Below, piece by piece: positions 5,196 to 64,000 of a stretch of DNA of 64,000 bases. The number at the start of each line of letters is the position of its first letter. Position 1 is the first letter of the stretch. Origin of the DNA: Bacteroidales bacterium (lineage in GTDB: Bacteria; Bacteroidota; Bacteroidia; Bacteroidales; UBA10428); NCBI GenBank assembly GCA_016929525.1, contig JAFGIP010000064.1:1-64000 (forward strand). Direction: 5' to 3'. The position numbers and the translations under genes are program-made. The notes under the pieces are model-generated. The model saw only the letters and a program-made list of their open reading frames with translations. It was not told where the DNA came from and did no database searches.

Positions 5196-6248
5196 CTATT
5201 GTTCATGCATGTATTCTGGATGATTGTTAAACTTCTTATAGGCAATTAGTAACGAATCGGTATACTCTTCTGCTCTGGAGGCTCTCAGGTGGAAAAGATC
5301 CGGAAAGTCTTCATCGACCGAAGAAAAAGAGGCCCTAATTAGTGGAATATAATTCATCTCGATCCATTGGCTGAAAACTTTAATATTATTTTTTGCAATA
5401 TCTGTTACATATATTTCCCTTATTACTGAAGAAACAGGGGTGTCGAATAAACAAATTTGACCACCAGCTTCGGTTACCAGGCGATTAATTTTATATAACA
5501 TACTGCTTTTCATGTCTTCCAATTGCAGTGGGGTTTGTTCATTAATTTTTACAGGAACAATATTCCGTGCCACTTTTCTTGCAATTTTAACTGAAATAGG
5601 ATCAAGTTTTACTCCCCCTTTAGCAAGCATATCTGCATTATTGTTTCCTCTGTTATTTTTTGTCAAAAAAATATTCTCATACTTCTCAAACTGATAGTTT
5701 ATCCAAACATCTGCAACTTCTCTGATAAAAAAGCAATCTCTCCAGGAGGCAAAATAATATAGTAATATGACATTTAGTTTCATATTGAAACTCTCATTGG
5801 CAGTTCTTAAAAATTCGTATAAAACCTTTTTATTAATATAGGGGATCAGTAAATGAGGGTTATTATCTTCCACCCAATCTTTCCCGTTTTCTGTATTACA
5901 GATTCCCATAGGAGCTTCAATAAAGACTGTACAGTTTTTTAGAGCATCCGGATTTCTTTTTAACAAGTGTTCCAAAGCCCTGTACTGCATTTGCATTGTT
6001 CCATATCCTCTTCCGGCATTGATCGCAATTTTGTCTGGAGTTTTAGTAAATACTTCAGTAACTATGGATACAGCAGTCCGTGAAGATCCAATGAAAATGT
6101 AGCTGATTGTATCAGAATTCTCTACATCACTGTAAATGTTCAATCGGGAGAAGTAATTATCATCCACAAAAATTCTGCAACTGATCTCAAGAATCACAAG
6201 TGTGAGAACAAAATAGAGCAAAAATCTAATAAGAAACTTCTGAAGCAT
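5196..6248 (-). CDS. Membrane-anchored SGNH-type protein partnering an MBOAT O-acyltransferase
   Basis: A 350-residue protein with one N-terminal membrane anchor (LLYFVLTLVILEI) and a probable periplasmic domain. It has the nucleophile-type motif GSSR (54-57, Ser after a beta strand 'YIFIG') and a C-terminal D-x-x-H (Asp317, His320), the layout of DltD/AlgJ-like SGNH proteins that work with MBOAT acyltransferases. I choose the ATG at 6248, just after the MBOAT stop codon, rather than the ATG at 6278 that would overlap it. Immediate coupling to the MBOAT gene supports a role in O-acetylating or acylating a polysaccharide. Overall similarity to a named family is weak, so substrate is open. Confidence 0.65.
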   Translation of the reverse strand: MLQKFLIRFLLYFVLTLVILEISCRIFVDDNYFSRLNIYSDVENSDTISYIFIGSSRTAVSIVTEVFTKTPDKIAINAGRGYGTMQMQYRALEHLLKRNPDALKNCTVFIEAPMGICNTENGKDWVEDNNPHLLIPYINKKVLYEFLRTANESFNMKLNVILLYYFASWRDCFFIREVADVWINYQFEKYENIFLTKNNRGNNNADMLAKGGVKLDPISVKIARKVARNIVPVKINEQTPLQLEDMKSSMLYKINRLVTEAGGQICLFDTPVSSVIREIYVTDIAKNNIKVFSQWIEMNYIPLIRASFSSVDEDFPDLFHLRASRAEEYTDSLLIAYKKFNNHPEYMHEQ

Positions 6249-6252
6249 AGCA

Positions 6253-7683
6253 TTAGAATTGAAAATAAATAAAATCACTACTTATACTGACACCGAAGAA
6301 GAAAATAATCAATAACACGGTAAAATAACTGATCCATCTAAAATAGATCGGTTTGGAATGGATTTCCAGCGCATATTGTTTATCTCTTTGTATCCATTCA
6401 ATTATCAGTAAACCGACAACAAATGGGAAGTATTTAAAATAGATCAGGGAGAAACTCATGCTCTTAAAAAAGAACATGTTATGAATAAAACCAAAGGCAT
6501 CTGTTAATGTATTTGATCGAAAGAATATCCATGCGAAACATGTAAGAATGAAAGTGAATAAGATATTATAAAATTCTCTGATGGATGGTATTAATTTGCC
6601 TTCAGCTGGTGTGTCGAGATATTTTCTGTTGCTCTTTGTAAGGATCAGAGGAAGGAAGTACAGTGCATTTAAAGCACCCCAAACTACGAACGTCCAGTTG
6701 GCCCCGTGCCATAATCCACTCACTACAAACACAATCATTACATTTCTGATTTTTAGCCAGTTATTTACACGGCTTCCTCCCAACGGAAAGTACAAATAGT
6801 CTCTGAACCAGGTGGATAATGAAATATGCCACCTTCGCCAGAATTCTGCGATATCCCTCGAAAAATAAGGGTAGGCAAAGTTGCGCATAAGACTAAATCC
6901 AAAAAGCCGGGCAGTCCCGATGGCAATATCGGAATAAGCCGAGAAGTCACAGTATATTTGAAATGCAAAGAATATTGCACCCAAAAATAACACAGGACCC
7001 TGTATATCCTGGTAATTTCCGAAAACATAATTAGCTGTTTTTGCACAGTTATCGGCTATAACTATTTTTTTAAATAATCCCCATAATATTTGTCGCATGC
7101 CATCTTTGGCCGATTCAATATCAAAATTACGTTGACGGGTGAACTGGGGTAAAAGATTTGAGGCTCTTTCAATTGGCCCGGCAACCAATTGTGGGAAAAA
7201 ACTTACAAAAGCAAAAAAAGCCAAAGCATCTTTTGTTGAACTTAATTTTCCTTTATAAATGTCCAAGGTATAACTCAGCGTCTGAAAGGTATAAAAGCTT
7301 ATACCCACCGGAAGAATGATCTTCAGGCTTTCATATTGAAGTTCTACCCCAAATTCCCGGAACATGTCAATGAACGAGCTTACAAAGAAGTTATAATATT
7401 TAAATACTCCCAGTAATCCAAGATTTGCTACCAAACTCAGGGCGAGTAATAGTTTCCTTTTAGCTTTATTCAGGGTTTTGTCAAGCTGAATTCCCACAAA
7501 ATAGTCTACGGTGGAACTAAATATAATCAGGGAAAGAAATCTATAATCCCACCAACCATAAAATACGTAGCTGGCAATTAACAGCAGTATATTTTGCAGC
7601 GTGATTTTTTTTCTTGGTATTAACCAGTATAGGATAAATACGAGTGGGAGAAAAACTGCAAAATCTAAAGAGTTAAAGCGCAT
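6253..7683 (-). CDS. MBOAT family O-acyltransferase (AlgI/DltB-like)
   Basis: An integral-membrane O-acyltransferase of 476 residues with about 11 helices. The diagnostic features are present: YTFQTLSYT (131-139), FFPQLVAGPIER (162-173), RRWHISLS-TWFRDYLYFPLGG (283-303) and WHGANW (325-330), whose His326 is the presumed catalytic residue. By analogy with AlgI and DltB it moves an acyl group from a cytosolic donor across the membrane to an acceptor sugar or to its SGNH partner, here the next gene. It shares long identical motifs with the second MBOAT at 17457-18902, so the two are paralogues. Confidence 0.92.
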   Translation of the reverse strand: MRFNSLDFAVFLPLVFILYWLIPRKKITLQNILLLIASYVFYGWWDYRFLSLIIFSSTVDYFVGIQLDKTLNKAKRKLLLALSLVANLGLLGVFKYYNFFVSSFIDMFREFGVELQYESLKIILPVGISFYTFQTLSYTLDIYKGKLSSTKDALAFFAFVSFFPQLVAGPIERASNLLPQFTRQRNFDIESAKDGMRQILWGLFKKIVIADNCAKTANYVFGNYQDIQGPVLFLGAIFFAFQIYCDFSAYSDIAIGTARLFGFSLMRNFAYPYFSRDIAEFWRRWHISLSTWFRDYLYFPLGGSRVNNWLKIRNVMIVFVVSGLWHGANWTFVVWGALNALYFLPLILTKSNRKYLDTPAEGKLIPSIREFYNILFTFILTCFAWIFFRSNTLTDAFGFIHNMFFFKSMSFSLIYFKYFPFVVGLLIIEWIQRDKQYALEIHSKPIYFRWISYFTVLLIIFFFGVSISSDFIYFQF

Positions 7684-10615: not shown

Positions 10616-11260
10616 TTATGTAAGAGTTACCTTACGTGCATAAAATGCTTCAGCATATGTAGTAGCCGACTCCATTCCTCTTAACCGTGGAAGTGCCTTA
10701 AATGTCTCATCGTCAAACCAATGCTTCTCCTGCTGTGATTTAAACGCTTCTATAAGAATTCGGTTTCTCTTGTCTATATATTTTGGTTCCAAAGGTGAAT
10801 AAAAATTTGGGATACCCAGATCACCGTCATACTTTGGAATTTCGTATTCAAGTATAAGATGGTTACGCCAGGTGTTCCAGGTCAGATCACTTACCAGGCG
10901 ATGGTCCTGATGTCTGTCATTCCGGTAATGAGTGAAAATTATATCAGGATTAAATTCACGTTTAATACTTTCGAAGAAGTCTTTTACTTCAGCTGCCATA
11001 AAAGGAAGAAAGCCGTCGCGATAATCATTAATAACAATATCAGAATTACCGATTCCTTTAAGAAACATTCCGGCGCTGCTGCCTGCCTCCGTTTTCCTTA
11101 TTTCGTTAGAAGCAAAAACAACCCATTTCACAGCATCTATCTTATAATTATCAAACAGCTTAAGCAATGTACCACCTGCCCCGATCTCAATATCGTCGCA
11201 GTGTGCACCCAGGCAAAGTACATTTAATGGTTTGTCATTATCAAGTTTAAAACCAAGCAT
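10616..11260 (-). CDS. PIG-L (LmbE-like) deacetylase
   Basis: A 214-residue zinc-dependent deacetylase of the PIG-L/LmbE family, which removes acetyl from N-acetylated sugars. The zinc motif near the N-terminus is GAHCDDIEIG (18-27; commonly AHPDDE) and a second metal-binding region is HYRNDRHQDH. The gene lies 5 bp downstream of the cytidylyltransferase in the same operon, so it probably deacetylates a sugar or sugar nucleotide made there. Start ATG at 11260 fits the family, which begins some 10-15 residues before the zinc motif. Confidence 0.85.
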   Translation of the reverse strand: MLGFKLDNDKPLNVLCLGAHCDDIEIGAGGTLLKLFDNYKIDAVKWVVFASNEIRKTEAGSSAGMFLKGIGNSDIVINDYRDGFLPFMAAEVKDFFESIKREFNPDIIFTHYRNDRHQDHRLVSDLTWNTWRNHLILEYEIPKYDGDLGIPNFYSPLEPKYIDKRNRILIEAFKSQQEKHWFDDETFKALPRLRGMESATTYAEAFYARKVTLT

Positions 11261-62631: not shown

Positions 62632-63045
62632 TAGGGAGAACGGAGAACGGAAACAGGAAACCGGAGGTGGAAGTTAGAAGCCAGAAGCTGGAAGCTGAAA
62701 GCTCCCGATCTAAACCATAATCATTCTCAACTTCTCAACCACCAACTTTAAACCTGCCTGCCGGTTTATAAACAGGCGGGCTTTAAACTTTAAACTAACT
62801 ACCCACTATTTTTCATAAGAATATCATTCACACATCCTTTTCTTTGATTTAAGTAAAGTGAAATGCTTTTGAAATAATATTTTTTTACCTGCCCGTTTAG
62901 TATTTTATTATTACACCGGTAAACTCTCACGTGAAAACCGCAGGGTACGTTATCATTCCGTTATTTGCAATAAGCTGTTAGGTTAACAATAGGACAATGG
63001 CTCTGCGGTTTTAGTTTTTAAAAAACTTTTAAAGAATTAAAATAT
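62632..63045. repeat. Repeat-rich spacer before the HTH gene
   Basis: About 414 bp without a gene. It starts with degenerate AGAACGG/AGAAGC-like short repeats (62636-62697). Then comes a zero-loop palindrome (62756-62781, 11 of 13 bases paired) of GCCTGCCGGTTTA type, common between Bacteroidota genes. At 62934-62943 and 63003-63012 a 10-bp perfect inverted repeat (AAAACCGCAG / CTGCGGTTTT) spans 59 bp right before the HTH gene. Confidence 0.55.
62934..63012 (+). promoter_or_regulatory. Candidate leader RNA hairpin upstream of the HTH gene
   Basis: AAAACCGCAG (62934-62943) pairs perfectly with CTGCGGTTTT (63003-63012), ending 33 bp before the HTH ATG. A 59-base loop lies between and contains GTTAGGTTAAC-like short symmetry. 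A short T run follows the right arm, so it could be a terminator or a regulatory leader. Confidence 0.35.
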
Positions 63046-63351
63046 ATGAATACATTATCCGAACTGGAGAATCTTGAAAAGATACATCACATAATTAAAA
63101 TCAGAAAGAGAGGTACACCGGGAGAACTGGCAAACCGGTTAAATATTTCAAGAAGCTGTTTATACAGATATATCAGTAAACTGGAAGAATTTGGAGCGGA
63201 AGTAGTCTATTCAAGAACTGGTGGATTTTTTTATTATAAAAATAATTTTGAATTTAGGCTGGTTGTTGAGATTAATGCCATGTTAAAAACTTTTGGAGGA
63301 AAAAATTTTTTCCGTCCCTTTATTTTGGACGGGGGGATTTTACATTTGTAA
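63046..63351 (+). CDS. Small HTH protein (HTH_11/DeoR-like)
   Basis: A 101-residue protein whose N-terminal 60 residues form a winged-helix-turn-helix of the HTH_11 type (KRGTPGELANRLNISRSCLYRYISKLEEFGAEVVYSRTGGFFYYKN), with no ligand domain. It probably binds DNA and controls the peptide gene that starts 78 bp downstream. The last 40 bases of the gene, together with sequence past the stop, can form an RNA hairpin (63302-63341). Confidence 0.8.
   Translation: MNTLSELENLEKIHHIIKIRKRGTPGELANRLNISRSCLYRYISKLEEFGAEVVYSRTGGFFYYKNNFEFRLVVEINAMLKTFGGKNFFRPFILDGGILHL
63302..63341 (+). promoter_or_regulatory. RNA hairpin overlapping the 3' end of the HTH gene
   Basis: Core stem CCGTCC (63312-63317) with GGACGG (63327-63332). 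It can extend outward through a row of U-G wobble pairs (63308-63311 against 63333-63336) and A-T pairs, with one bulge at 63306. It lies inside the coding end of the HTH gene and before the peptide gene. It could stop or slow transcription, or protect the mRNA end. Confidence 0.45.
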
Positions 63352-63429
63352 TTACAAGACGTAATTGGCCAAAAGGTTTTGTAGGTAAACCAACACCTGC
63401 TTTTAAAGTTGGGTTAAATTCAAAAAGTT

Positions 63430-63585
63430 ATGAAAAATATCGAAAAAAAATCGTTATGTAAATTTAAAGAGTACAATGTGGATAATATGGAAAACATAAT
63501 TGGAGGCCAGGAAATTCAAATCTGTATCACATTTTCTGGTTTCTTCGACGGGATAAAGAAAAATGAAGATATAAGATTCAATTAA
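63430..63585 (+). CDS. Double-glycine leader peptide (bacteriocin/RiPP-like precursor)
   Basis: A 51-residue gene. Residues 1-26 form a leader ending in Gly25-Gly26, with the Bacteroidota GG-leader pattern: basic start MKNIEKKSL, then KFKEY, an acidic region and ENIIGG. The putative core is 25 residues from Gln27 (QEIQICITFSGFF...). Such leaders are cut after GG by peptidase-containing ABC transporters (C39 type), which are not in this window. The core has only one cysteine, so lanthionine-type rings are unlikely. Start is the ATG at 63430, and a terminator follows 8 bp past the stop. No radical-SAM gene is visible before the edge. Confidence 0.7.
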   Translation: MKNIEKKSLCKFKEYNVDNMENIIGGQEIQICITFSGFFDGIKKNEDIRFN

Positions 63586-63593
63586 CTCTTAAT

Positions 63594-63632
63594 ATTACGG
63601 TCTCACAATGAATTTTGTGGGATCGTAATTTT
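63594..63632 (+). terminator. Rho-independent terminator after the GG peptide gene
   Basis: Arms ATTACGGTCTCACAA (63594-63608) and TTGTGGGATCGTAAT (63615-63629) pair at 13 of 15 positions with the other two as wobble, six-base loop, then a T run (63629-63632). Confidence 0.8.
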
Positions 63633-63663
63633 AAATATCAATTAATGTAACTAAAGTAAGAAA

Positions 63664-64000
63664 ATGAAAACATTATTTGCTGGTTTAATTATTATTAGTA
63701 TGACTGCTTCTTGCGGGTTATTGATAAAATTATTATCACATCAAAACGGAATATTGGACACAGAGGGGATGGATAATATAGAATCACCAAATAATGACGA
63801 TAATACCATTTTTATAACGCATAGGATTTTTAAATATCATGTCAGCCAAAGAGAAATCAACAGGTGTATAAATTTTGATCTGGAAATGGTTGTTATTCCG
63901 GGATATGTAAATTCCCAGACAAAAATTAAATATAAATACAAGTACAATCCGGCCGATTTAACGCAAGAGGAAATAATTGATTTTACGGATTCAATCTATG
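63664..64000 (+). CDS. Lipoprotein, partial (runs off the window)
   Basis: An open frame from the ATG at 63664 to the window edge (112 codons seen). The signal peptide MKTLFAGLIIISMTASC ends in a lipobox with Cys17. The rest (acidic, then 'ITHRIFKYHVSQREINRC', 'INFDLEMVVIPGY') resembles no domain I know. It is 78 bp past the GG peptide gene and beyond its terminator. Confidence 0.65.
   Translation, partial: MKTLFAGLIIISMTASCGLLIKLLSHQNGILDTEGMDNIESPNNDDNTIFITHRIFKYHVSQREINRCINFDLEMVVIPGYVNSQTKIKYKYKYNPADLTQEEIIDFTDSIY

Follow-up and report, generated by a model that had tools for sequence, protein, structure and literature searches.

A short double-glycine peptide gene in a Bacteroidales genome, very probably the precursor of a grasp-with-spasm graspetide

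A 51-codon reading frame with a double-glycine (GG) leader, set between a small helix–turn–helix (HTH) gene and a lipoprotein gene, raises the question of which class of peptide it encodes and whether maturation and export functions accompany it. The window (the whole 64,000-nucleotide stretch analysed) comprises positions 1–64000 of a 76,271-base contig from a 122-contig assembly; gene coordinates above 64000 follow the contig numbering and lie outside the window, and the cluster is encoded wholly on the plus strand. Gene content, gene order, family matches, conservation and clade membership together indicate that the reading frame is very probably the single precursor of a graspetide from a grasp-with-spasm cluster.

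A preliminary description of the window had proposed a secreted-peptide locus with the order HTH regulator, GG peptide and lipoprotein, and this order was recovered. The HTH protein (63046–63351, 101 residues) matches Pfam HTH_11 (E=2.3e-8, 34.2 bits, cut-off 25), and the lipoprotein (63664–64401, 245 residues; window part 63664–64000) carries a lipobox (...MTAS-C) and has no significant NCBIfam or Pfam match. Between them, the precursor gene (63430–63585, 51 codons plus stop) encodes a leader ending in Gly25-Gly26 (63430–63507) and, as previously described, a 25-residue core with one Cys (63508–63582; QEIQICITFSGFFDGIKKNEDIRFN). The hairpin reported 3′ of the precursor, in the intergenic region before the lipoprotein (63589–63634), is highly stable, with a fold energy of −22 kcal/mol (z = −6.98; 0 of 200 shuffles equally stable) and a short U-tract, and may act as a terminator or a read-through attenuator. 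By eye, a hairpin followed by a T-run also separates the precursor from the next gene in the related Hymenobacter locus described below. Rfam searches of the region returned only chance microRNA matches to the hairpin, no convincing site for the Bacteroidota promoter consensus was found upstream of the peptide, and no common operator emerged from the DNA upstream of the peptide gene in this and the two sister loci described below. A further hairpin (62934–63018, AAAACCGCAG...CTGCGGTTTT followed by a T-run; −27.6 kcal/mol, z −3.0) lies upstream of the HTH gene and could be the terminator of the preceding gene or a leader attenuator.

Maturation enzymes, sister loci and the SPASM lesion

Beyond position 64000, where the preliminary description had suggested looking for an exporter and modifying enzymes, the contig holds both, in keeping with a secreted-peptide precursor locus. 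An ATP-grasp protein (64398–65402), a 53-residue protein in the position of LPL (65365–65526), a SPASM protein (65526–66598), an ABC exporter with a Peptidase_C39 match (66604–68814; 2e-35) and an adjoining HlyD family protein (68801–70078) follow one another; the distance from the start of the peptide gene to that of the exporter is 3.2 kb, and the modifying enzymes lie in between. No second precursor candidate was found inside the cluster. Immediately 3′ of it lies a Gp49-like/XRE-like pair (70297–70928), a probable toxin–antitoxin module, beyond which the contig carries unrelated genes.

For the ATP-grasp protein, TIGR04192 gives a full-length match (positions 1–318, E=7e-64), and for the SPASM protein TIGR04193 aligns over positions 87–333 only (9e-35), a partial match explained by the lesion in its gene. 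Both scores fall under the NCBIfam curated cut-offs (216 bits versus 230 and 121 versus 175, respectively), which speaks against the graspetide cluster call, as does the frameshift in the SPASM gene described below. The solved structures nearest to the ATP-grasp protein are AMdnB, the ATP-grasp ligases 5IG9/5IG8 and CdnC, which are established graspetide synthetases and share with it the motif E-[VI]-N-P-[TV]-G. The radical-SAM motif CX3CX2C was present in none of 22 SPASM sequences (the N-terminal piece of the window-contig protein being read by eye), and the SPASM motif CxxCxxxxxC in 20 of them; a radical-SAM label for the SPASM protein is thus unsupported.

The same gene set, headed by an HTH gene, occurs in Hymenobacter elongatus (L015) and in a second Hymenobacteraceae genome, G955 (L094), where the order departs from the others in that the precursor lies 3′ of HlyD. 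Relative to the window-contig proteins, the ATP-grasp proteins of these two sister loci are 52% and 54% identical and the exporters about 60%. The small LPL-position protein, directly 5′ of the SPASM gene, is 47–51% identical to its sister-locus counterparts and can be aligned with the equivalents from other loci, with few conserved columns. Phylogenetically, the ATP-grasp proteins of the three loci group as a single clade with SH-aLRT 100, nested within the GwsG group and set apart by a long stem (0.83). The gene between precursor and ATP-grasp differs: the lipoprotein here, which is without relatives among the loci compared, and a 421–423 residue protein with weak beta-propeller matches in the sister loci. 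On the reverse strand of the G955 locus, an imperfect repeat of ~85 bp (TCCAAATATAGTGG ... TGCCGCGAAAGCC; about 2885–2985 and 10820–10905) lies upstream of both the precursor gene and the 423-residue gene.

The SPASM gene of the window contig carries a one-base frameshift at a G6 run (65643–65648; 5644–5649 in the extracted locus L003), after codon 40. Both halves match the family in different frames, and the SPASM proteins of the two sister loci, 45% identical to each other, are unbroken, as is the gene in most other loci examined, the exceptions being L109, with a single in-frame stop, and L103, where it is disrupted. A programmed frameshift was rejected on the ground that the frames are unbroken in relatives. 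The cluster may instead be decaying here, its SPASM maturase a recent pseudogene and its peptide partly matured or unmade, a reading compatible with the graspetide class. The one-base frameshift at the G6 run, and the restriction of the TIGR04193 match to the second frame with the N-terminal piece in the first, favour such decay, as does the accessory nature of the cluster, which follows from the lack of the ATP-grasp gene in all eight same-genus genomes; in the same family, one marginal and partial match was found (E = 1e-4). Against it, none of the remaining cluster genes is interrupted or truncated, the reading frame beyond the lesion continues for >300 codons without a stop, and a homopolymer error of sequencing or assembly, in a contig from a 122-contig assembly, would look identical. 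On balance, we regard decay as a possibility to be taken seriously, though not as the likelier state of the cluster.

In L109 (G555), the stop interrupts a grasp-with-spasm SPASM gene on the reverse strand (about 5599–6627) after ~57 codons, and that locus, too, is headed by an HTH gene whose product has a GG tail.

The distribution of the ATP-grasp gene among these relatives, together with a G+C content of 30% in the last kilobase of the window versus 41–46% in the preceding kilobases, is consistent with acquisition of the cluster. The same-genus genomes share chloride-channel genes with the window organism, and no empty insertion site was recognized, as the 10–18 kb read in them held no counterpart of any downstream gene. 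A phage or plasmid origin was rejected, the cluster having no close relative in the phage or plasmid collection.

The precursor core

A GG site is not convincing evidence by itself, since seven short reading frames of the 64 kb window, counting both strands, pass a loose GG-leader filter, the precursor among them. The peptide has no significant match in NCBIfam or Pfam, including precursor models such as TIGR04149. The case for the precursor comes from the sister loci. The preliminary description held that lack of leader conservation among relatives would argue against its proposal; the Hymenobacter and G955 precursors preserve both the leader and the core. The aligned cores of the window, Hymenobacter and G955 (ITFSGFFDGIKKNEDIRFN, PTITGVLDGVKHNTDFHL and ITISGVLDGVKKNTDFKI) share Thr34, Gly37, Asp40, Gly41, Lys43, Asn45 and Asp47 without exception, with Ser or Thr at position 36, giving the common motif T-x-[ST]-G-x-x-D-G-[IV]-K-x-N-x-D. 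Comparison of the window core with its two sister cores gives scores of 41 and 60, where shuffles average 13–16, and the similarity was reached by 0 of 20,000 shuffles (P<=5e-5). Branch-5 precursors usually vary fast even among close relatives (PMC8939145), making this conservation across two orders notable.

The preliminary description had suggested that the peptide class may be new. The class, judged by the surrounding genes, is a known one, the grasp-with-spasm graspetides, so only the core type looks new: the 18 other grasp-with-spasm precursor cores compared are all unlike the three-locus motif, the best score of the window core against them being 20. Shared with only two other loci found, the core type appears new relative to the cores compared, and the supplementary lists of PMC8939145 and PMC13097080 may include the motif. 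In the open literature searched, the conserved residue pattern was not found described.

Could the peptide leave the cell without modification and serve as a bacteriocin-like or signalling GG peptide, with the nearby enzymes acting on other substrates? Elsewhere, GG peptides beside the HTH family are mostly plain and bacteriocin-like, and no ATP-grasp gene was noticed in their short flanks. Against this, the genes for precursor, ATP-grasp protein, small protein, SPASM protein and exporter co-occur in three loci from two orders, the core retains Thr, Ser/Thr, Lys and two Asp residues, and the cluster offers no alternative precursor candidate, all of which makes unmodified export improbable. That the reading frame arose by chance, as GG-bearing short frames do (six others in the window), is refuted by the conservation of leader and core in two loci of another order (P<=5e-5) and merits virtually no weight.

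The HTH regulator family and its tail

The small HTH_11 family is spread across Bacteroidota; profile searches of about 840 genomes (with some overlap), clustered at 70% identity, yielded 84 members. The preliminary description had inferred that the HTH protein regulates the peptide and had proposed a search for small peptides after this HTH type. In a first pass, GG peptides followed 26 of 50 relatives, whereas the opposite strand gave 1 of 50 (4 of 80 in the 84-member set), a linkage by which the putative regulatory role gains support.

The C-terminal tail of the window HTH protein bears a double glycine of its own at residues 84–85 (63295–63300), followed by KNFFRPFILDGGILHL. Across the family, a GG peptide lay within 500 nt 3′ of 22 of 29 members with a GG tail versus 13 of 52 whose tail lacks GG (p = 1.6e-5), with corresponding fractions of 11/18 versus 10/48 once profile-seed sequences were excluded (p = 0.003) and 4/5 versus 3/17 in the class-level set retrieved last (p = 0.02); because the members are related by descent, these p-values overstate certainty, and the tail hypothesis arose from the first 50 members, with several cut-offs (distance, tail definition) set after inspection of the data and a hand-made pattern as GG-peptide filter that admits a few spurious reading frames. 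Tail length without GG showed no link to GG peptides (n=5 only). The GG column is nearly invariant in 13 tail-bearing relatives, a set picked for having the tail. Scored with a matrix trained on 56 real leaders, the HTH tails had a median of 5.7 and the control GG sites, taken from other proteins, one of −14.2 (AUC 0.90, p = 1e-13), most of the tails exceeding the 99th percentile of the controls, with NINKEQMEEIKGG and LTNDDMSKISGG as leader-like examples. Run alone, three of four tails had NCBIfam leader models as their best matches, weak ones below cut-off (E 0.018–0.085).

The window tail (LVVEINAMLKTFGG), assigned to the family through its alignment (FGGKNFFRPFILDG, compared with FGGSNFRPILLDG in other members), reaches only the 93rd percentile of controls and is a weak case of the leader-like motif, and from the regulators of Hymenobacter and G955 a GG tail is missing altogether; at the present locus the tail is accordingly a lead and not an explanation. 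We tentatively suggest, with the odds leaning against it, that Bacteroidota possess an HTH family with a built-in leader-like tail, which might let the C39 exporter of the controlled peptides bind or cut the regulator; within that reading, the window HTH protein is a divergent member. Precursor transcription would then be coupled to export capacity, or a short tail peptide released as a signal, a simple feedback between export and transcription that would be new in Bacteroidota. A search of the open literature, subscription papers lying outside its scope, found nothing on HTH proteins with GG tails. With their tails, many of the HTH proteins resemble nitrile-hydratase-leader (NHLP) precursors, in which a folded domain likewise precedes a GG site; the HTH proteins differ in that the domain is DNA-binding and the tail site is leader-like by sequence.

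Proposed maturation and comparison with known systems

The scheme that we propose for the graspetide is inferred in all its reactions and in its ring pattern, as is any biological role. In it, the HTH protein would control the precursor promoter, and the hairpin 3′ of the precursor would keep precursor mRNA above enzyme mRNA. The leader would recruit the ATP-grasp ligase, which would activate Asp40 and/or Asp47 with ATP and join them to Thr34, Ser36 and/or Lys43, forming lactone or lactam rings. At most two rings are predicted, linking Thr34/Ser36 (or Lys43) with Asp40/Asp47 and perhaps nested. The small LPL-position protein may chaperone the substrate for the SPASM protein, whereupon the exporter would cut after Gly26 through its C39 domain and, working with HlyD, export the 25-residue product. 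With one short core and conserved residues arranged as if for forming rings, this would be a compact, testable graspetide system.

Among known systems, the closest likeness is to the ATP-grasp branch 5 architecture, which has the same order of precursor, variable protein, ATP-grasp, small protein, SPASM, C39 exporter and HlyD, and whose small protein goes by the name LPL, with a proposed chaperone role towards the substrate (PMC8939145). These grasp-with-spasm clusters (gwsG/gwsS), which are probably the SPASM-linked group 14 of PMC13097080, share the GG leader and a core in which Thr/Ser and Asp are conserved, and an annotated example on the Elizabethkingia anophelis plasmid NZ_CP016375 has the same gene order. 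The window locus differs from them in its single 25-residue core (TxSGxxDGxKxNxD), the HTH_11 gene at its head, the lipoprotein and the SPASM frameshift. More remote are the microviridin, chryseoviridin and plesiocin families, for which omega-ester or amide macrocycles are established. Their synthetases (AMdnB, CdnC and PsnB) share the ATP-grasp fold and catalytic motif, whereas AMdnB and CdnC are distant from the ATP-grasp protein of this contig (local matches, E 1e-21 to 1e-12), and these families have another leader and core, the accessory SPASM protein being a feature of the present cluster.
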